NCBI GenBank assembly: GCA_905250025.1
Contig: CAJNOJ010000222.1
Span: 62,001-126,000, forward strand
Source: Adineta ricciae
Taxonomy: Eukaryota > Rotifera > Eurotatoria > Adinetida > Adinetidae
DNA: 64,000 nt
Reading direction: 5' to 3'
The notes under the pieces were generated by a model. That model saw nothing but the letters and a program-made list of their open reading frames with translations, ran no database searches and was not told the origin of the DNA. Made by a program: the position numbers and the translations under genes. Of the stretch, positions 3,694 to 64,000 are shown in pieces; position 1 is the stretch's first letter, and every line of letters begins with the position of its first letter.

Positions 3694-5169
3694 AGTTAGT
3701 TTACTTGCGATGACGCTCTGAAAACAATAAAAATAAAAGAAAATTTAGTATTGAAACAACATAGGGAATAATCAAGCCAATGCAGAAAAACAATCTGCAG
3801 AATGATGGTGGATAGTTTAGTAAAGTTGATATCTTTATGATTAGATATTTATGCGATGCGTACATGGAGTCGTCTTTCTAGTGTCAGCATTCGAGAGACC
3901 AGTAAAATTCGTTGCCGCACTGATGTTGCGGATAGTGGTGTAACTAGGATTTGACAGATGGCCGGGCGACATCCTAATATTTTTTAAAATTTACTCTTTT
4001 TAGTAATTAAGAGTGTATCAGATGAAATGAGCCTCTCAATATTCTTGCAGATATCCGTTCGAGTTTCAATCGTGCATAGTTGCATTTTTTCAAAAAGTAA
4101 GCTATGAATTCATCTAGAAAATTCTTATTAAACAAATTCTTTCGATAAACGATTATGAGTTGTTTACTTTCTGATGGCACCGAGAATTGTAACAGTTTTC
4201 TTTTCTCGAGATTGCTATTATTTTATCTAAAATTTACCTCATTATAAAGCATTGCTCAGGTCAGCTACTACCGTAGTATGATAGATTTTCTAGTAATTTT
4301 GCACATTTTTAAACAAAAACAAGATTTCTGAGAATTTACGATAAACACGTATAGCTAGCAGGGCAGGGCAGGGCAACTTTTTGAAACCGCCCTGCCCTGT
4401 GGTCATCTCTGTTCTGAATGACACTTTAAAATCTCCTATACTACCCAACCAGTATTATCGCTGATTTACATAAACTCGTCTTATGCTTTGGATGTAGCCT
4501 ACCACTATAGTTTTTACACTTTGATGTTTTTATATTCGTGCACGACTGTATCTTTCTGCGTCAGAGGTATTCACAGGGCACATTTTTCCTGTCTTGTCCT
4601 GTCCTGCAGGGCGAACGGCAGGACTGAATTCGAAAAGACGCTTTGATCTATGAAACCTCTGTTTCAAGTACCGCATACAGAACGAAAATAATTCAACCAA
4701 GAATAATGATTTTAGCAGTCAGATCTGTTCGAACATTTTCTGCTATGATTAGCCGTCAATTTAATTGAATATAAATTCGAGAGTGAAGATACGAGAGTAG
4801 GAAGCATATGTACGCATCAATATCATTCTAACCTATATTCTTACCTCATACAGTGAATAAGAAACTCAAAGAAAAGCGTTCAAGCGATTACCACCTTTTA
4901 GTGAGACATAATTTAATCCGAACTTACTGTTGTTTCCAAAGTGTCGTCTTCCAAATGAGAATATAACGCCGTTGTACACAATCGCGACTTCTGTTCGTTG
5001 TTTTTTTTCCTTTGTTTGCTTTACCTATATTTTTGCTGCTCTCTCACATTTTGTCTGTTCGGTGATCGCTGTTTCTCGTTTCGATTGAATCGTCACGGAC
5101 GAGCAATCAAAGCTGTGTATAATCTATTCCACATTGCCATCAATCAAATATAACTGAGATGCAGCTTAT
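3694..5169. other. Long intergenic stretch with a GC-rich inverted pair
   Basis: No gene recognised. The notable part is 4358-4625: a (GCAGG) run at the left and a run that is similar when reverse-complemented at 4595-4609, with a short local hairpin (GGGCAGGG against CCCTGCCC) at 4361-4399. Block B carries a decayed version near 11784-12030. Confidence 0.45.
4358..4625. repeat. Possible small foldback (MITE-like) element
   Basis: The left end GCAGGGCAGGGCAGG is matched, with three differences, by the reverse complement of 4595-4609. The roughly 240 bases between have no coding frame. I could not define target-site duplications, so a short non-autonomous element is only one reading; a GC-rich hairpin of other origin is equally possible. 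Confidence 0.25.
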
Positions 5170-15574: not shown

Positions 15575-15641
15575 TAATTATTCGAAATGTTTAACCGTAA
15601 ATAAAAATCGACTTAAATAAAACACACTTCTATTGATATAG

Positions 15642-18535
15642 ATTCACCTGTACCACCAAAGCAACAAAACGAAAGCTATCAACTCTTAGTCAAGTTGCTT
15701 CAAGAGGCGTGCCATCTCGAACATTGCTTGTTGAATTCGTATTTATATACAGCATGCTCGATCAAGAGTACACCTGACGAATTTGAAAAGATCGATCATG
15801 CGGATAACAATATTCGTGCTGGTATCCAATTTGAACGTGCTCGAGAATGGAAACAAAGTATTTTGTTGGTAGCACATGAAGAAATGATACATTTGCACTA
15901 CGTTCAATGCATGCTGCGTGCACTTGGAGAACGTCCTTGTTTCACGCTACCTGATCGGCATCCAACAACGGGAAACTGGTTTATTCCAAATTGGAGAGCT
16001 CATATTGGAGAGAAGCCGAATAACGAAGGTGTACAAGTTCCAATTGAACCATTGACCTCGGAGTGCATTCAACACTTTGTTTTGTACGAATCAACGGATG
16101 CGCTACAAGATCAAGATCCATACGGGCCAAAAATTATGGCTCTATTTGAACAACTATTCGACTTCGAAGTCAATTTAAACATTGAATCAACACTACTGAA
16201 CGTCGACGATGAACCAACTCGAAGAAAATTATCCAGTCAGTTGCGAAGTCTCTATACCACGCAACTGCCACTTCTCGCACCGGCGAAACCGTTAATAAAA
16301 GTTGCACTGGCTGAATTACCGCCAGTAGAAGAGTTACATTTCGCTTCGATCGCTGATTTTTATCTACAAGGCGTTGCTCCATTATACTGGCAAGCCTTCC
16401 ATGAACATTGGGTCGTTAACAATAACCGCGACTTAGTAAACGAAATGCTTTCGCCAGATTTTGCCGGCGAAGGTTTTCTGCCTGTTGGTCCTATCTACAG
16501 AAGTAAAAATTTTGATGCATTAAATACCCAAAATATGAGAAGTTATTACCGAAATGTCAAGAGTGTCGACCGTATCATTGCTGAAATTGTTGATGAAGGA
16601 GAAGGATTTAAAAATTTCGAAGAACGTGCGGAGTTCCTGTTGGATAAAGTCAAACATATTGGGACACGCGAATATTTACGTTGTTATCTAGAAGAGAAAG
16701 CACCGAAAACAACTTCGACAAAATACCCGTGGCTGGCTGATTGCGAACGACTTCGCCAGTCTCATTTGTACCGCTTTGCCATGATTATGATGAGTATGAA
16801 ACAGGAAGCCGATTTAGCAAACGCGGTCAACGTCACATTCAACGCTTACAGGGAACCGGTAAATATAGATAGCAACGTTACCTTGAAAGACCTTACTACT
16901 CAAATACCTTATTATTTCAATGCCTGCTATCTTGTCATGATCATGTGGCTATCGCGAATGTACGAAATAGCACATTGGGCCGGCGATAAGTCTCAACGAC
17001 AAGCTATTGAAATGATTGCCACTTGGCCACTTATGTCGCTCGCTATACGACCGTTTTTGGAGCTCGCCTCATTCTTTCCGATCGAGAAGAAAGAACTTTT
17101 TTCACTTAACGCTGACTATCTTCCGCGTTTACCTTTGCACGCTCGTCAATTGTTTCAGCTCTATGCTGCAGAAGACAGATCTGAAAGGATCAACGAGTCT
17201 CTCGATTACTTTGGTGTGAAAACATTGACAGATGTCGCGATGTGGGCAAATGATAAAATCGGACCGGTTGGTAAATCGGATTTACCAAATGAACAAAAAG
17301 AAATGATCATTACTCGTCTCAAAGCTCTCACAGTTTTGAATGAGTTCGAATCACAATTTACGTTTCGCGTTCATGGTGGTTATTCGAGCACGATGCCTGA
17401 TCTAACCTATCAAAGAGAACATGACCGAGGTAGTCTACAATTCGAAGAACATCCGACCGGCGATACTTTTAAACCCGACGACGCTGCTTTTTATCAAGAT
17501 ACGTTACTGCTGCGTTTACGGTTTTCAGGCTGGGGTCTTGTTCAATTGGCTACCGATCCGGATCCACCGACTGACGAGGCTGGCTGTACGGGCACACAGA
17601 TGTTACAACCATCCGATGGTAAAGGACGTCGTCTAAACAGAGCTCTTGTCTGGCAAAAGCATACCAAAGATCTTACTGAGATCACGCGTGGACCGCAGGG
17701 CATTGTACCGGAAATCGGAGTCAACTGCGTCGACGTCAGTCTGATGGTCGCAGGTTCGAATACCACAGTTGGGTACATGCCTTTGCAAGTATTGAATAGT
17801 ACGGGCGCGGTACAAACGAGCGGCGTTCAAAGTACACTCAATATTACCGGTTTATCTGAACTACAACGGCTGAAACCGTCTGATATCACTGGCGATTCGA
17901 ATAGAAAGATGCGTATTGATCTTCTGGAGAAGAATGGTTTCAAACCGTTGTTGCTTGGTGAAAATCATCTCGTATGGAAAGACGGCGAACCGATCGATCC
18001 TTTCATACTGGCTATTTTAATCGATAGTAATGATCAAAAACAACAACCGACTCTTGTGTGTAGTCGCGAAATTTACAATGAGGATAAACGCCTTCTTGAA
18101 ATGACTCCGTATCAAAGACTTCGTAGCGGTCGTGCACCCTTCGGTTTTGATAGTGTGAAAAATATTCCAGAATGGGCTGCACAAAACTTTTCGAAAGCAG
18201 AGGCCGAACTGATTAGCAAACCAGAATATCCGACCAACTATCTCATCGCACGAGCACATAACCTTCAGCAAGCTCTCGAATCAGCTATTCATAGCGCCGC
18301 TAAGCCACCGAAACCGGAAGATGTGAATAACATCGTCTCATTAGCTGATCGAATGAGACAATTGGTACCCGATCCAACGAAAAAGCTATATCGATGGCTT
18401 CTTTATTTACTGCATTATGGCCATTCGATCAGTGGCACGCTCAATGCTCCAAGCACGACACCTATACTCGAAGTCATACGCAAAAATACGGGTCTTTCAT
18501 GCGCTATTACTGCCAGCAACAACCGAAACGAAACT
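15642..18535 (+). CDS. VioB/RebD/StaD-type ferritin-like protein, central part (block C)
   Basis: One long exon without stops. Joined with exon 1 of block A and the E exons (21211-21492 and 21655-21897), the coding length is 3492 nt, in phase, giving 1163 residues. VioB and RebD are about 1000. The N-terminal part carries the ferritin-like helix pattern of the iminophenyl-pyruvate dimer synthase family: LLQEACHLEHCLLNSYLY followed by AHEEMIHLHYVQCMLRALGE, with Glu and His residues placed to bind metal. In bacteria this family couples two indole-pyruvate imines in violacein and rebeccamycin synthesis. No partner gene (VioA/RebO type) is seen here, so the substrate in an animal is unknown. Introns show it is a resident eukaryotic gene. 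Horizontal origin is likely but not tested. The C-terminal half has no domain I recognise. Confidence 0.7.
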
Positions 18536-18536
18536 N
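18536..18536. other. Scaffold join (single N) C/D
   Basis: Bases 18537-18757 restart 221 bases before the end of C (18315-18535) with a few substitutions. A frame crossing this N repeats about 74 residues and is an artefact. Confidence 0.85.
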
Positions 18537-19444
18537 CGGAAGATGTGAATAACATCGTCTCATTAGCTGATCGAATGAGACAATTGGTACCCGATCCAAC
18601 GAAAAAGCTATATCGATGGCTTCTTTATTTACTGCATTATGGCCATTCGATCAGTGGCACGCTCAATGCTCCAAGCACGACACCTATACTCGAAGTCATA
18701 CACAACAATACGGGTCTTTCATGCGCTATTAATGCCAGCAAGAACCGAAACGAAACTAATTCAAGATGGTTAATCAAGTATACTTTGGGTTTAATGGATG
18801 TTGATGCACTCTCCGACTTTGTTTTTGGTGAACTATATATACCTCTGACAGTCGCTAATGCTCCAAATCAACCCATCCAATTGCGTCACAGTTGGACGTT
18901 CAACAAAGGAGTCTACAATGCAGTGAAAGACTTTGCTCTCGATTTCTTTCGTGCTTTCTGGTCCGATGATTACACTTATGATCGCAGTAACAATACTCGT
19001 AGTTTACAGATCGATACTCAGCACAAACTAATCGAAACAGTAAGTCAATCAAAAGTAAAGCACTATCTTTTCTAATGCAGAAATAGATCATCAGAAAGTG
19101 ACAAGCGTTGTCAAAATCCGTAATATATTTGAACTGTTTCATTGAAGTCACTCTGACCTTTCTAAAGCATCTGTATACTTTAGCTAAGTAATCCTGCGCA
19201 GAAACAGACAAGCGGTTCATCGTATGGCTATGAGTATACACAGACGGGCTTCACCGATATAACTACATGTTCTCAAAAAATTGCACTGACTGTCAACAAG
19301 AACAATGCGACATTCACGTGGAATATCAGCTTCGTTGCCAAAACGGAAAAAGCAACAGTGAACATGGCAATCTTCTTTACAAACCAAACTGCTCAGGCCG
19401 ATGCTGCCTTTGAAAGATTTCTCCTGCCGTCACCAGATGATTAG
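18537..19444 (+). CDS. VioB/RebD-type protein, 3' part (block D)
   Basis: Exon to 19039, intron 19040-19201 (GTAAGT...GCAG), last exon 19202-19444 ending TAG. Splicing in phase gives LIET joined to KQTSGSSYGYEY. Without splicing the frame would end at 19075. The final ~80 residues contain TFTWNISFVAKTE and look like a small beta-rich domain of unknown type. Alternative-haplotype version of 20997-21897. Confidence 0.65.
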
Positions 19445-34742: not shown

Positions 34743-36233
34743 TCAAATAGAGTTCTTTTGAAAAATCATATAGAAAAAAAACGATGATAAGACCATCGAG
34801 CATGGGATCAAAGCCAATTTTGTAGCTGATGCAATAATTCTGCTTAGTTTTGATAGTATGATAGAAATAATCGAACTCGAATGAAGATCTTTGTCTTTCT
34901 TATCTAAAATATCAATGATTGAATACACATTCAAATTCTCATCGTTTGCAAAACATTCCAATAGGTAAATAACTCCATTATGAAATCTTCTACCCCATTG
35001 TTTGCTTAAACCAGGATATGTAAATGTAGTAACTAAATTCAGACAGCCGTCATAAATACACGTATAATTCATATGTGACGAAGCATCGAGAGGAGTCGAG
35101 TTATAATGAGCTGTCATGATCCGTAGATCGTTGATGCTTAACCGATGATATTTCGTTTGGAGTTGGGCAGTTCCATTTGACGATGTCATGAGACTTGCTG
35201 GTTGTACAGGCACATTGAACTTTTTCGCATTGAGAAAATGCCATCCCATATGTTGATGATTATGTTTGTGAAGTTGTTTCGATGCGTCTTCAGCAAGAGA
35301 CCATAAAGATGAATGCGGTTCGATGTTTTGCTCCCAAGCCAATGGTGCCGATGCTTGAATACAATCTTCAGGATCGATAGGAGGTCGAGCAGATTGACGA
35401 AGATTAGTCGCACACCAGTTCAATGACCAGATTGGGAGTTGAGGGCGTGATTTTCGAATCCAGATCGATGTGATTAGAGCAGCAATACTCAAAACTCCTT
35501 GAACTGTCGTTGAATGAGCTTTGGCATTAGTTACTAGTTTCGTTGTGGTTAACTGATCAAATTTTTTGAATAAACCTATCGTTTGCCCAGATGAAGATGA
35601 CACCACCGATTGAATTTCATCGGTATCTGCATCCATTTCTTGTGGTGTTAAGTAATTATGATTGAAATTAAAGCAAGGTGCTTTATCTATCGGATTTCGT
35701 GCAAATACATCAATAAACGATCGTTGCTCTCGTGGTAAAATCGTTGAATAAGTTTCACATTGACTTATCTCACCCAGATAGCTGAAAAGCGTGTGAAGTG
35801 CTCTCATAAAACCCAAACCATCCAATGCTATATGATTGACGACACCAAAAAGCTGGTATCGACCGCGATTATTATAGTGACATTGAAGAAAAGTCAGAGA
35901 TGTATTATGATCAAATGATTGGTTTGCAAGACGATTAACTTCTTCTTCCCAGTTGTCCAAAATTCCTTCAAACCATACCAATGGAATACTTCCGGACTCT
36001 TCTTCAACGAGCCATATTGTATCGTTTACTTTGTCGGTATGCAAACGAAAATAAGGATGATATTGTCGCAAAAGAGCCAGTGAGTGATTGATCATACTCT
36101 GAGTTAGATTCTCACATACAAAATCACAATAGAAAGTGATGCTTGTACTGAGATCTTCCGTGATATCGATGGGACGCTTGAAAAGTATTTTCGGATCTTC
36201 ATTCATTGATCGGACGCTAGGATCCATGTACAA
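34743..36233 (-). CDS. CoA-dependent acyltransferase / condensation-domain-like protein
   Basis: 496 residues in one exon. The active-site motif reads NHIALDG (HxxxDG) at about residue 134, in the position expected for the condensation / PapA5 / alcohol acetyltransferase superfamily. The preceding LLRQYHPYFRLHTD is also typical. A C-terminal hydrophobic stretch (LALIPCSMVLSSFFFYMIF) suggests membrane attachment. The second-domain DFGWG motif of plant BAHD enzymes is not seen. Acyl donor and acceptor are unknown. It lies tail to tail with the ABC transporter and in the same haplotype-specific segment. A shared detoxification role is possible but only inferred. Single exon and family distribution fit horizontal origin. 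Confidence 0.7.
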   Translation of the reverse strand: MYMDPSVRSMNEDPKILFKRPIDITEDLSTSITFYCDFVCENLTQSMINHSLALLRQYHPYFRLHTDKVNDTIWLVEEESGSIPLVWFEGILDNWEEEVNRLANQSFDHNTSLTFLQCHYNNRGRYQLFGVVNHIALDGLGFMRALHTLFSYLGEISQCETYSTILPREQRSFIDVFARNPIDKAPCFNFNHNYLTPQEMDADTDEIQSVVSSSSGQTIGLFKKFDQLTTTKLVTNAKAHSTTVQGVLSIAALITSIWIRKSRPQLPIWSLNWCATNLRQSARPPIDPEDCIQASAPLAWEQNIEPHSSLWSLAEDASKQLHKHNHQHMGWHFLNAKKFNVPVQPASLMTSSNGTAQLQTKYHRLSINDLRIMTAHYNSTPLDASSHMNYTCIYDGCLNLVTTFTYPGLSKQWGRRFHNGVIYLLECFANDENLNVYSIIDILDKKDKDLHSSSIISIILSKLSRIIASATKLALIPCSMVLSSFFFYMIFQKNSI

Positions 36234-36734
36234 ATTTCTTAAAACTGGAAGTTACAAATCAGCGAAGCGTTTTTATAATACTAGCACACGCACATACACG
36301 AATGGTTTTTTCCTATTTAATTTCATACTTTCTACATTCTGATAGAATCATTCCAATGAGTAAAAGCCTGATTTATGCATATTTTTTGCTAATGAAATCA
36401 TTTTTAGTTAATTATTTTCACTAATTTTTCACCTTTCTCCCATGATACTTCACTAGTCAACTGCTATTTTTATCACTTCCTTGCCAAAAGGTACACTATG
36501 AGTCATGCATCAACGCGAGGTACTAATTGCGAATATCATTTGCGTATATATACAAAATCACGGATCGTTTATTGAAGACAAATACGTGAGATATCCTAAA
36601 AATAGATATAAATTTTTTCAACGAACGTCATACACACAAATAGTATCGGAACTAGGCAGAAATTGCGCGATTTGATAATATGGTATATAAGCGCTTATTC
36701 AATCACTACACAAATCACTTTGATTCAAACAAAA
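36234..36734. other. Promoter-side spacer
   Basis: Between divergent starts. GTATATAAGCG at 36682-36692 sits about 43 bases before the ATG at 36735 and is a good TATA candidate for that gene. Nothing else seen. Confidence 0.5.
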
Positions 36735-53078: not shown

Positions 53079-54080
53079 TTACTGTCGAATCGAAAAAGAT
53101 TTATGACAATATTCGAGCGCTTTTGTATAATCACCCATGTTCTTATACACGACACTGATGTTGATATAGGATGTAGCCAGATGAGGATGATTTGCAGGAA
53201 GTGATTGTTCCCAAATTGAAAGAGCTTTGTGATAGTATTTGAGTGCTTTTGGATGGTCACGCATATCACTATATACACCACCGATGTTGTGGTAAGAGGC
53301 CGCCAAGTCAGGATGATTTGTAGGAAGTGACTGTTGTCGAATTGAAAGAGCTTTCTCGTAGTATTCAAGTGCTTCTTGATAGTCACTCATATGATGATAT
53401 ACCAAACTGATGTTGTTGTAGGACGTGGCCAGATGAGGATGATTTGCAGAAAGTGATTGTTGGTCGACTGAAAGGGCTTTCTCATAATGCTCGAGTGCTT
53501 TTTGATATTCACCTGTATGACTGTACACACTACCAATGTTATTGTAGAATGTGGCTAGATGAGGATGGTTTGCAGGAAACGCTTGTTGATGAACTAAAAG
53601 TGCCTTCTCAAAATATTTGAGTGCTTCTGGATAATCACCCATATTCTTATATATCAAACCGATGTTGCTGAAAGATGTGGCTAGATCAGGATGATTTACA
53701 GGAAGCGATTGCTGTTGAATTGTAAGAGCGCTCTGAAAATATCTGAGTGCTTTAGGATACTCACCCGTCTGAGTATATACACTACCAATATTGGTGTAGG
53801 ATGTGGCTAAAACAGGATGATTTGCAGGAAGTGAATGTTGCCCAATTGAAAGAGTTCTCTGATGGTATAAGACTGCTTTTGGATAGTCACCCATATAATG
53901 ATACACCAAGCCTATGTTATTGTAGGACGTGGCCACATCAGGGTGATTTGTAGGAAGTGATTGTAGTTTAACTGAAAGGGCTTTCTCATAGTATTCGAGT
54001 GCTTTTTGATATTCACCTGTACGACTGTACACACTACCAAGGTTGTTGTAGGACGTGGCCAGATGAGAATGATTTGCAGA
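53079..54080 (-). repeat. 42-residue (126-nt) TPR array with 84-residue super-period
   Basis: Eight units starting LATSY. Units 1, 3 and 5 read GSVY..TGEY, while 2, 4 and 6 read GLVY/GLIY..MGDY. This indicates growth by duplication of a two-unit block of 252 nt. Confidence 0.75.
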
Positions 54081-55535
54081 AAGTGATTTTTCGCAAATTT
54101 CGACTGCTCTTTGACAAAGCTCTATTGCTTTCAGATATGCGCCCTAATGGTCCTGGACGGTAGCAAGTTGATGATAGATTAGCCATTTATCATTATCATT
54201 CGACGTTTGACTTAACAATACATTGTAAATTTCTTCAGCTTTCTGATTCTGACTCAGCTTGATTAGCAGTTGACCTAATCTACTCCAACCATCTCCATCT
54301 AAATAATTCTCTTGTCGAATATAATTGGTAAGTGTACTCAGTTCTTTGTCAACGTCGCTAGTTAGTAATATATTCACTTCGTAGATTGGGCGATCGGTAC
54401 AAAGCGGTTTGATCTCATGTATGCGAAATACACTATGCATAGTAAACAACACTTCAGCTTCAACGCCGAATTCACTAACATTTTCAATAAAAGCAAATGG
54501 CGTGGTTGTTTGAGTAGGATCAACCTTTATGTTAAAAAGAATTCCCACTAAATCAGAATTGTATGCATTACTGTCTGCATAATGATTGGCAATGTCGCGT
54601 TCCATGGTAGTAGATAAGAAGTAGTTGAATGACATCAAACCACCTTTAGTCTTAGATAGTTCTTCAAAGTCTTCTCTAGACAATCCTTGTCCACGATAAA
54701 CGGTAAAGATGTTCGAAAAAGATGTATTAATAATTTGTTCTCTATGCAATTGTTCGATGTGTCGATGAAGATCAGCGATGAAGAATCCCATTCGCACGAG
54801 GATTTCACCATCTATTACTCGTAAGGCACGATTGAGCATGGAGTGTAAGATAGTACCTCTAGTATACCACCAAATAGGCTCATTTGCAAGATAGTCATTC
54901 ACTAATTGATCGGCATCGCTAGATTGTTTACTATTGATAGTTAATGCAGTGGGATAATCATGGATAAATTGTTTTATATGTTCGTCGCCAAAGTTTATGG
55001 TTAATAAGACTTCCTTGAAGAGTTGCGTATACATGAACGATGGATTGAGTTGATCCAGTCTTCTTTCTGATGCTAAGAAACTTATTGGCATAGCATTCTG
55101 TTCGTACCGATTAAATATATCTTTTACTGCTTCATAGAGTGACTTTATGTCTATGAAAACACCCTTTATCTTAGTCCAAATTGTCGCCCATGTTTCATGA
55201 CGACGTTGATTTTCACAGAAGATGAAAATTGAATCCAATTGAGGCATATCATGAATACAAGGAACAAGGTATCGTACAACTGAATCAGAAAGGATTATGT
55301 ATACTTTGCTCTGACTACTATTCAAAATAAACTCAACGCATTCGTCATTATCGGTAAACGTATTTACATGACTCACAATGCGTTCAAGTTGTCTAATTGT
55401 ATATTGAAAATCTTCGTTGTTGTGATCCTCACAATCGTGCAACCATATCGTAACAACGCTAGGCATCTTATGAACAGCAATGAGTCGACCATTGTCGCCT
55501 TCATTTGAAGTTGTGACTGTTTCTCGGCTTGCCAT
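53079..55535 (-). pseudogene. ADP-ribosyltransferase-TPR protein split by one in-frame TAG
   Basis: One reading frame of 819 codons is broken only by TAG at 54144-54146. First part (463 residues): an N-terminal alpha/beta domain of unknown type, then an ART domain with Arg281 in VYRGQG, the Ser motif MSFNYFLSTT at 301-310, and the ExE motif EAE at 359-361. This is the full R-S-E triad of arginine-specific mono-ARTs. Directly after the stop the frame resumes with GAYLKAIELCQRAVE and kinesin-light-chain-type TPRs of 42 residues: seven full and one partial. CAG to TAG is a single-base change. A truncated ART-only protein, readthrough, or an inactive allele are all possible. Single exon. The start ATG at 55535 is the first of a long open frame. 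Confidence 0.75.
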
Positions 55536-56430
55536 TGATACTATAGATCGAATCGTTTCAATGTGTAGCTAGTTTTGCAAAAAAAATTCTCTCTCTCGGC
55601 TCCCTTTTTCCAACGTGGATGAGATGTTTTTTTCCGTTATATTTACGTGTAGTCAGTATATGTTTTGCCAACAACTGAGGGATGATAAGAACGTTACAAT
55701 CCGTAGTTTGTTATCATCAAACAGGATAGAGTCAAGTAAACTGAAAAAAAAACTTTCATAAAGAAGATATCCTTCTCACCAAATACAGCAACACGTAATT
55801 TGCATTATGTAATCGTGATGATAGATAAAATAACGCGTGCTAAAAAGATTTAGTTCCTATAGAAGTATATTTTTTGTGTTGATCTTCCGAGCGCTTAGCT
55901 TACAGAAAAAACAGCATAACCTCATGTTGGTTTCTCCCAACACTAAACATTTTATTGTGCAAAAATGAAACTTGGAATTACTGTATGTCTTTTTTAGATT
56001 TCTATAAAAATGAAAAATCCGAACAGAGAATCATGCAAACACTCCCGAATTTTCACAGTGACCGAAAATGCCTGCGGGAAAACGACAGTAAGACCTTTGC
56101 AGAAAAAAAATACAGACAAGGTAATTCTGGACATGTCGATGAGAATGCAATCGAGAAATAACCAGATTTTACTACCAGCTTCAGTGTAATAGTGACTAAA
56201 TTTACATAATGGGGTCCATCAATCGCCACAATCTATAGCCATAAGCCGAACAAAAGGTAATTGTTCGTTTACTTACTAGATTAAGTCTACTGAAGTTTTG
56301 CACACACCAAATGCTTGATCCTCTTTTGATGAAACTCAACATATAGAATATGAAACCAAACATTACACACAATACATTCTTCTTAATCAGAATACTCAAA
56401 TCACTCACTTAGATCAGAGATGACACTGTA
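55536..56430. other. Intergenic stretch
   Basis: No supported gene. A plus-strand frame at 55955-56161 has no recognisable domain and low-complexity Lys/Asn content. Probably contains the ART-TPR promoter. Confidence 0.4.
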
Positions 56431-61810: not shown

Positions 61811-64000
61811 ATGATGGGTAGTCGTTATGTAGACAATGCTTCGGAGTTCGAAAGCATCAATCGAAACCCAATATTTGAGTATGAAGATTTACCACTCCAG
61901 TCTATAGAAGAAACATTACAATGTATTATATCTGACATTCCTTGCATCATGGATTACGTCAAAACAGCTAAGAATAAATGCAATCGTGCTTCAAACATAC
62001 TAACACTTGATGAATCCGCAGCCATCTATCTCTATTCAATGTCATCACCAGTTTATAATCAGCTCAACAGTACTCTTCGAGCTCACGATCGTACAACATC
62101 AAAACTATGGTTTCCTTTCCTAAAACTCCTCACAACGGCTCTCAAAAGATTACCTTCAATCGAGACTACTGTTTGGCGAGGAGTCAGTTATGATGATACT
62201 TTGGCATTCGTTGAAAATGATGTACAATATTGGTGGAGTGTAAACTCATGTTCTAAGGCGCCTAATATTGTCAAACCATTCTTGGGAGAAAAGGGTACTA
62301 TATTTGCTATTGATGTCATCAATGGCAAAGACATTTCAACGTTTGCCGCAAATTGCGAAGAACTAGAAGTTATTCTTATGCCCGGATCTCGTGTACGCCG
62401 CAAAAATGAATCACTTTGTCTGTCCGATCATATCATTCTTCACTTGGAAGAAATAAGTTCTGACAAGTAAATCAACACTTAACTTCTTTGAACATTATTA
62501 ACAGTATTTTTTAGTGACACACAATTAGGATCGAACTATTTGTTTGATATAGTGAAGCAAAATTATCTGTACAACAGTCGCATCGAACGTTTGATAAATC
62601 CGACCAAATCGTTTCCGATCGAACAAAGTTACATCAATTTATCAGTAGTTACTTCTCAAGAACAACACAAACGAGAACAAAAATTGCGCGGCGCTGCATA
62701 CAGTGACCACATGTTAAGTTCTTATGAAGAAATCTATGGTACGAAGAGTCCAATAGATATCCAAAATATTTTTCAATCTTGTGAGAAAGACATGAATCAA
62801 GTTCTTGTATTTGGTCGAGCGGGTATCGGAAAATCAACATTCTGCCGTTACGTCACTTATCAATGGGCAAAAGGTGCATATTGGCCACAGTATGACTTAC
62901 TTGCTCTGATTCCATTGCGTCGTTTGACCGCCAATCGTTATCCTCCAATGACATCTGGTCAGAATTATTCTCTTATTGACGTGTTGAAAAAAGAAGTATT
63001 CTCATGTGAACTTTCCGAAAGAGAAAATGCTTTGTTAGAAAAACAATTCGATGTTAAGAATATCCTTTGGGTGTTAGACGGCTACGATGAAATCATACAA
63101 AATGAACCAGGACATTTAGAAGAGTTGTTGGAGAAGTTACTTAAAACTCCTCATCATATTGTTACATCGCGTCCGTATTTAAATACTTTATCATATCATG
63201 CACAAATGGAAATCACTGGTTTCACAGATGAAAATATTGGTCAATACATACAACAATTTTTCGATCAAATGAAAAACGAAGTCGAGGATGCGACAGTCAA
63301 ACATCAAACTTTAATGAAATTTTTGAAATCAAATCCTAGCATATGGGGTGTCGCTCATATTCCAGTCAATTTGGAATTGATTTGTAGTCTCTGTAGCAAT
63401 CAAGATTGGTCAAAGACAGAACATCTATCGATAACAACATTGTATAGCATGATAACAGAATGGCTATGTCGTCGCTACTTAAAAACATCGAATGACAAGA
63501 TTTCTCAATTGCCCGACCATGAGCTTTACCAATGTTGTAGAGGTGAGCTGAAATTTTTGGAAAGACTCGCTTTTACTGCAATGGAAAACAATACAATCAT
63601 TATCCGACCTACTCTACTAAAAAGAACTTTAAGAGATACCAATATTATCACTCAAGATCATCCACACATTCTTAATATTGGCATTCTCAAAAGCTTTGCC
63701 AAAGAAGGGGTCGGCACTCAAATTGAAATGAATAAAGAATACTATTTCGTTCATCTCAGCTTTCAAGAATACTTTGCAGCACGCTATTGGACAAATACTC
63801 TCAGTGAATCGTCAGCAGAGAATGTCCTTGAATTCGTTCAGCGTCATAAGTATAACCAACGATATGCATTGGTATTTACTTTTATGGCTGGTTTACTGAG
63901 TGAAAACGATGAAATGACACTTTTGAATACCTTTTGGAATCGGATTCTACAAGAGCCATTGGATTTAGTGGGATTACGACACATCGAGCTTATTGTCATT
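61811..64000 (+). CDS. ART-NACHT fusion protein (NLR-like), 3' end beyond window
   Basis: Exon 1 61811-62466, intron 62467-62514 (48 nt), exon 2 open from 62515 to the window edge. Residues 1-219 form an ART domain: Arg123 in VWRGVS, Ser146 in SVNSCS, and EELE at 183-186 giving the ExE pair. After the splice, a linker leads to a NACHT NTPase. Walker A FGRAGIGKST is at about 62812-62841, Walker B ILWVLDGYDEI at about 63060-63093, the sensor-like HIVTSRP follows, and further on VHLSFQEYFAARYW is the winged-helix end typical of NLRs. C-terminal sensor repeats, if any, lie outside. The layout fits an NLR-like receptor with an ART effector. That role is inferred; the domains and key residues are seen. 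Confidence 0.8.

Follow-up and report, generated by a model that had tools for sequence, protein, structure and literature searches.

In plant TIR-NLRs, an enzyme is part of the same chain as the receptor and acts directly. The N-terminal domains of vertebrate NLRs are described as acting via protein-protein contacts, and the strict definition of an NLR given in the same source is NACHT plus LRR (PMC12909245). Bacterial NACHT proteins are described as having an N-terminal effector, a NACHT and a C-terminal sensor, an order that the antiphage protein bNACHT25 shares with the gene analysed here (PMC12169576). Executor domains listed for apoptotic systems include both TIR and ART (PMC8195603). 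A literature search that excluded most subscription journals found no bdelloid ART-NACHT fusion described. No literature on bdelloid ADP-ribosyltransferases was found either, and none of the bdelloid papers retrieved, judged by title, concerned rotifer NACHT proteins.

The stretch of 64,000 nt of Adineta ricciae DNA analysed here (the window) ends within a gene that encodes ART, NACHT and HEAT parts in this order. The gene differs from bNACHT25, which has a nuclease effector and an NCH1 domain and belongs to a bacterial system. With the animal NLRs (NLRP3, NLRP1, NLRC4 and NAIP) it shares a NACHT with Walker A and B motifs, a winged-helix His and C-terminal repeats, but it carries an ART, not a CARD, PYD or BIR, and HEAT, not LRR.

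Domains of the ART-NACHT-HEAT gene

Exon 1 (61811..62466, forward strand) encodes the ART domain. It starts at the Met at 61811 or at 61814, with an in-frame stop upstream, and matches the Pfam ART family (PF01129) with an E value of 3.9e-6 and 26.8 bits, against a curated cut-off of 22.3. Counted from Met 61814, the catalytic residues are R122 of WRG (62177..62179), S145 of the S-C-S motif (62246..62254), which aligns to rat ART2, and E183 and E185 of the ExE motif (62360..62368), all on the forward strand. These four are invariant in an alignment of 19/19 ART exons from the same genome, and a profile built from the 19 exons finds rat ART2 at 1.3e-9. The original prediction of an R-S-E type ART with its catalytic motifs is thus borne out, and the R-S-ExE residues are, as judged from the alignment, intact. 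AlphaFold2, given only the domain's own single sequence, returned a pLDDT of 31.7. The family and the R-S-ExE motifs are shared with vertebrate ecto-ARTs such as rat ART2; the rotifer ART differs in that it is fused to NACHT-HEAT and has no signal peptide apparent by eye.

Exon 2 begins at 62515 on the forward strand, and its in-window part (62515..64000) comprises a linker, the NACHT and a winged-helix/HD2-like region. The Walker A motif GRAGIGKS (62813..62836) has GRAGIGK invariant in 12/12 NACHTs, followed by S or T, and the Walker B motif LDGYDE (63074..63091) and the sensor 1-like TSRP (63164..63175) are likewise invariant in all twelve. In the winged-helix His motif HLSFQEYF (63752..63775), which aligns to IHMTFQEFF of NLRP3, HLSFQE and the final F are invariant in 12/12; all four motifs are on the forward strand. 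Pfam matches are to NACHT (E 3e-14), to HEAT_2 (E 7.1e-52) and, below its cut-off, to NLRC4_HD2 (6.6e-5). The NACHT with intact Walker A and B and a winged-helix end was therefore correctly predicted.

The window cuts the gene, and the exon 2 frame runs on to L009:6478 (C222:128478). It had been proposed that extension of the sequence would reveal the C-terminal sensor, and the extended frame encodes HEAT repeats, which account for the HEAT_2 match. The joined protein is 1,539 aa long from Met 61811. A purpose-made pattern, written after the sequence had been inspected, finds 17 HEAT motifs spaced 35 residues apart, save for two intervals, of 36 and 70 residues, and suggests about 18 units of 35 residues. 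No LRR match was found in exon 2 in the Pfam scan. The protein has neither the C-terminal LRR of the strict NLR definition nor the CARD, PYD, DEATH or BIR N-terminus of the canonical vertebrate form, and shows HEAT and ART instead.

Recurrence and joining of ART and NACHT

In its own genome, the window NACHT finds 25 matches, and 16 loci, those at 46% identity or more, are counted as its family. Left out of this count are C280 (41%, with a 44% piece), C542 (45%), two matches each of C422 and C167, and two additional pieces of C564 (47% and 49%), of which the latter, at 4601, may be another locus. Ten of the 16 have a same-strand ART upstream. In four of these (C222, which is the window gene, C222b, C362 and C133) the NACHT directly follows the ART, with no TIR match between; in the other six (C449, C161, C148a, C868, C502 and C894) a TIR domain stands between the two. 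The TIR_2 Pfam family is matched by 3/3 TIRs tested, at 1.5e-15 to 2e-22. The TIR Glu, at the position known from SARM1, is kept in 10 of 11 TIR loci examined, the exception being C593 (L044), which is without that stretch.

As for the remaining six loci, C148b, C593 and C550 show an N followed closely by what looks, by eye, like the final part of an ART exon with the same kind of donor; they probably have an ART of which the rest is missing owing to assembly gaps. In C564, the TIR is at the very start of its contig. At the TIR-NACHT loci C398 and C441, the 2.8 and 2.7 kb of gap-free sequence upstream contain no match to ART, and one may lie farther away. The 130-Mb genome has at least 152 ART matches (553 first-look candidates), and by chance an ART in the correct orientation in the 2 kb upstream is expected at about 0.004 per locus, as compared with 10 of 16 loci observed, although these loci are paralogous, with recent copies among them, and not 16 independent trials. 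ART-NACHT is, at the sequence level, a real and recurrent fusion. The tandem copy C222b (L011, C222:143014-146667) is situated ~20.7 kb downstream of the window gene, with an ART that is 97% identical and an upstream flank that is similar by eye. That C222b is a pseudogene was considered and not upheld; its break coincides with a single N at position 2709 of L011, possibly a gap in the assembly.

Between the ART and NACHT exons of the window gene is a 48-nt GT-AG intron of phase 2 (62467..62514, forward strand). In 10/10 genes with a whole ART, a phase-2 GT-AG intron fits at one and the same position behind the ART, with lengths of 48, 48, 416, 291, 114, 114, 113, 113, 340 and 339 nt. Eight of the 10 also allow other in-frame pairings, which at the window gene give introns of 48 and 72 nt that use a different GT; the 48-nt pairing chosen is the one that agrees with the relatives. 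The splicing of ART in phase to NACHT, as originally predicted, holds in this sense. Because the intron fits the same place in all ten genes, it is most likely that a single protein contains both the ART and the NACHT.

Two other gene models were weighed. That the ART and the NACHT-HEAT frame are two adjoining genes making separate proteins appears very improbable. The gaps between the frames of C362 and C133, 416 and 291 nt if intronic, would suit it, but it is opposed by the shared intron position and phase and by the constant order and strand of ART and NACHT in 10/10. In addition, the first Met of exon 2 is 65 residues in, past eight residues that are invariant in 12/12 NACHTs, and thus a NACHT gene of its own would have to start elsewhere. 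It is also quite unlikely that the ART exon serves as a first exon that transcripts may use or skip, with the locus making proteins with and without ART. C398, in which no ART is seen, does have an AG|T before the first Met of its TIR, in the same phase, a single case that is possibly due to chance; C441 lacks this AG|T, unlike C398.

ART domains also occur with other partners. Nine ART exons that are not NACHT-linked, some of them close copies, show a phase-2 donor-like site after six and a phase-1 site after one; by a simple rule, no donor was found after the other two. An ART is in one frame with a caspase domain in L020 (C314:608-4246; Peptidase_C14, 2.2e-31) and with MORN repeats in L022, where a second ART frame has N inside. 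In L023, a Jacalin-like match at the cut-off shares a frame with an ART match that is below its own cut-off. AIG1 (L013) and Laminin_G_3 (L019) are found downstream of an ART in separate frames. Of ten proteins scanned with Pfam, four have no partner beyond the ART-type match and two have no match at all. We infer that the ART has spread by exon shuffling. The window itself contains an ART-TPR protein (53079-55568, reverse strand), with an ART-type match to PF03496 (2.3e-5) followed by TPR repeats in the same frame. It resembles the ART-NACHT-HEAT protein in that an ART-type domain precedes a repeat domain, and it differs in having no NACHT, in matching PF03496 and in having one in-frame TAG between its parts. 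As a separate observation, the ART exons of L027/L028 are near-identical to those of L041/L042 over the first half but diverge from them over the rest, a pattern such as recombination or gene conversion within the domain would leave.

Relatives and divergence of the NACHT core

Two short peptide patterns, run against 84,980 species, hit 77 stretches and yielded one relative, L048, from a gammaproteobacterial MAG; the patterns are strict and other phyla could still hold relatives. L048 scores 310.6 bits with the rotifer NACHT profile, as compared with 59 bits for NLRP3, which is the best PDB match to the same profile (3.3e-15). By sequence, the rotifer NACHT core is far closer to this gammaproteobacterial NACHT-HEAT protein than to the solved human NLRs. 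L048 resembles the window gene in its NACHT-HEAT arrangement (32% identity over about 465 aa) and has an Ank-TIR gene directly upstream. Eight of 369 genomes in its class match at 1e-10. Among five bacterial relatives scanned, only L048 has a HEAT match, the other four loci being cut short. L055 has a TIR_2 match below the cut-off in its NACHT frame, and L051 has a TIR-like frame alongside, seen by eye. Unlike the window gene, the gammaproteobacterial NACHT proteins occur in genomes with no PF01129 match (0/8); this family also had no match in 14 control genomes, though the genome of the window matches.

A NACHT tree was built from 25 rows, 14 of them rotifer sequences of the window family, two from C422 and nine bacterial, with C222b, C564 and L049 left out. 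The 14 rotifer rows, ART and TIR types alike, cluster with support of 100/98. Within the cluster, C441 (TIR) is placed beside C133 (ART) at 98/95, and C398 (TIR) with C222 and C362 (ART) at 80/81. As the tree mixes ART and TIR types, N-terminal effectors appear to have been gained or lost repeatedly on one core. The history may have been one of an ART-TIR ancestor with losses or one of repeated ART gains; an ART tree, built from 26 rows, is compatible with one common origin for the NACHT-linked ARTs but does not establish it (AU p 0.13). In the NACHT tree, both C422 rows are placed among bacterial sequences, so that the bacterial outgroup does not form one side of a branch, and long bacterial branches leave the deeper order unsure. 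These C422 loci, L003 and L006 (C422:59123 and 41791), are long frames without interruption, near-identical to each other, that encode a different NACHT.

The HEAT part is far less similar between paralogs than the NACHT. In 6/6 comparisons of C222 with its paralogs, identity is 48-60% in the NACHT and 19-26% in the HEAT part (residues 740-970 only), and part of this HEAT divergence may be due to misalignment of repeats. Several dN/dS pairs rest on few changes. For C222-C362, dN/dS is 0.23 in the ART and 0.14 in the NACHT, with synonymous sites saturated; for C222-C133 it is 0.31 in the ART, again with saturation, and is not computable in the NACHT. C222-C222b gives 0.32 and 0.39 from only six and four synonymous changes, and 0.42 in the HEAT part. 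The ART and NACHT ratios are 0.46 and 0.60 for C148a-C868, 0.18 and 0.31 for C502-C894, and 0.43 and 0.20 for C868-C502. Four TIR pairs give 0.57, 0.13, 0.09 and 0.49. In C449-C161 (L026 and L024), the ART ratio is 1.33, from 34 non-synonymous and seven synonymous changes, and that of the NACHT is 0.42; the ART value could reflect relaxed or diversifying selection.

Proposed function and neighbouring genes

The window gene probably encodes an NLR-like STAND receptor, with HEAT sensing, NACHT switching and mono-ADP-ribosylation by the ART as output, a reading we hold with moderate confidence. The HEAT superhelix would sense a ligand or a guarded protein. The NACHT, its motifs being intact, would then exchange ADP for ATP and oligomerize, and the N-terminal ART would thereby be activated or clustered. 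With its intact R-S-ExE motif, the ART would use NAD+ to mono-ADP-ribosylate arginines of target proteins. An immune role for the protein is suggested by analogy.

Not every STAND protein is immune, and the protein might be a regulator of stress responses or development; this has a small but appreciable chance of being correct. The differing TIR and ART N-termini, the fast divergence of the HEAT part and the tandem copy speak against such a regulator, in that they fit receptors in conflict, albeit as circumstantial evidence. Alternatively, the ART may be a former enzyme that now serves as a binding or oligomerization module. The variety of ART partners in the genome and the dN/dS above 1 in one ART pair are compatible with a module of this kind, which is nevertheless unlikely in view of the R, S and ExE residues, invariant in 19/19 exons, and of dN/dS values below 1 for the window gene.

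If the receptor reading is correct, a protein-modifying enzyme in the receptor chain would act directly, like those of plant TIR-NLRs and of nuclease-ended bacterial NACHT proteins. A wider scheme is put forward only tentatively, as it is more doubtful than the receptor reading itself. In it, a bdelloid receptor family would be built on a bacterial-type TIR-NACHT-HEAT core onto which a promiscuous ART exon with a phase-2 exit was shuffled; the NAD+-using TIR and ART would then be interchangeable or stacked outputs. Were this true, there would be an animal NLR-like class whose direct output is ADP-ribosylation and whose core has been exchanged with bacteria. The presence of ART, TIR or both on one core constitutes a natural experiment in the attachment of effectors to a STAND switch. 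The origin of the NACHT core can be tested through its bacterial relatives.

Other genes were noticed in passing. A fusion of an N6_N4 methyltransferase with a chromodomain has been described for sequenced bdelloids, the methyltransferase being said to be without eukaryotic homologs (PMC8885841). The present genome has two N6_N4_Mtase genes with SPPY and, by eye, a chromodomain-like tail, one of them with a stop inside the match; the pair supports a bdelloid as the source of the DNA. The telomere repeat TGTGGG did not discriminate, with 12+26 matches as compared with 14+30 for its reversed control. Within the window, the frame at 34743-36251 on the reverse strand matches PapA_C (5.4e-8), and the frame at 15617-19075 on the forward strand has a Ferritin-like match (4.7e-18).
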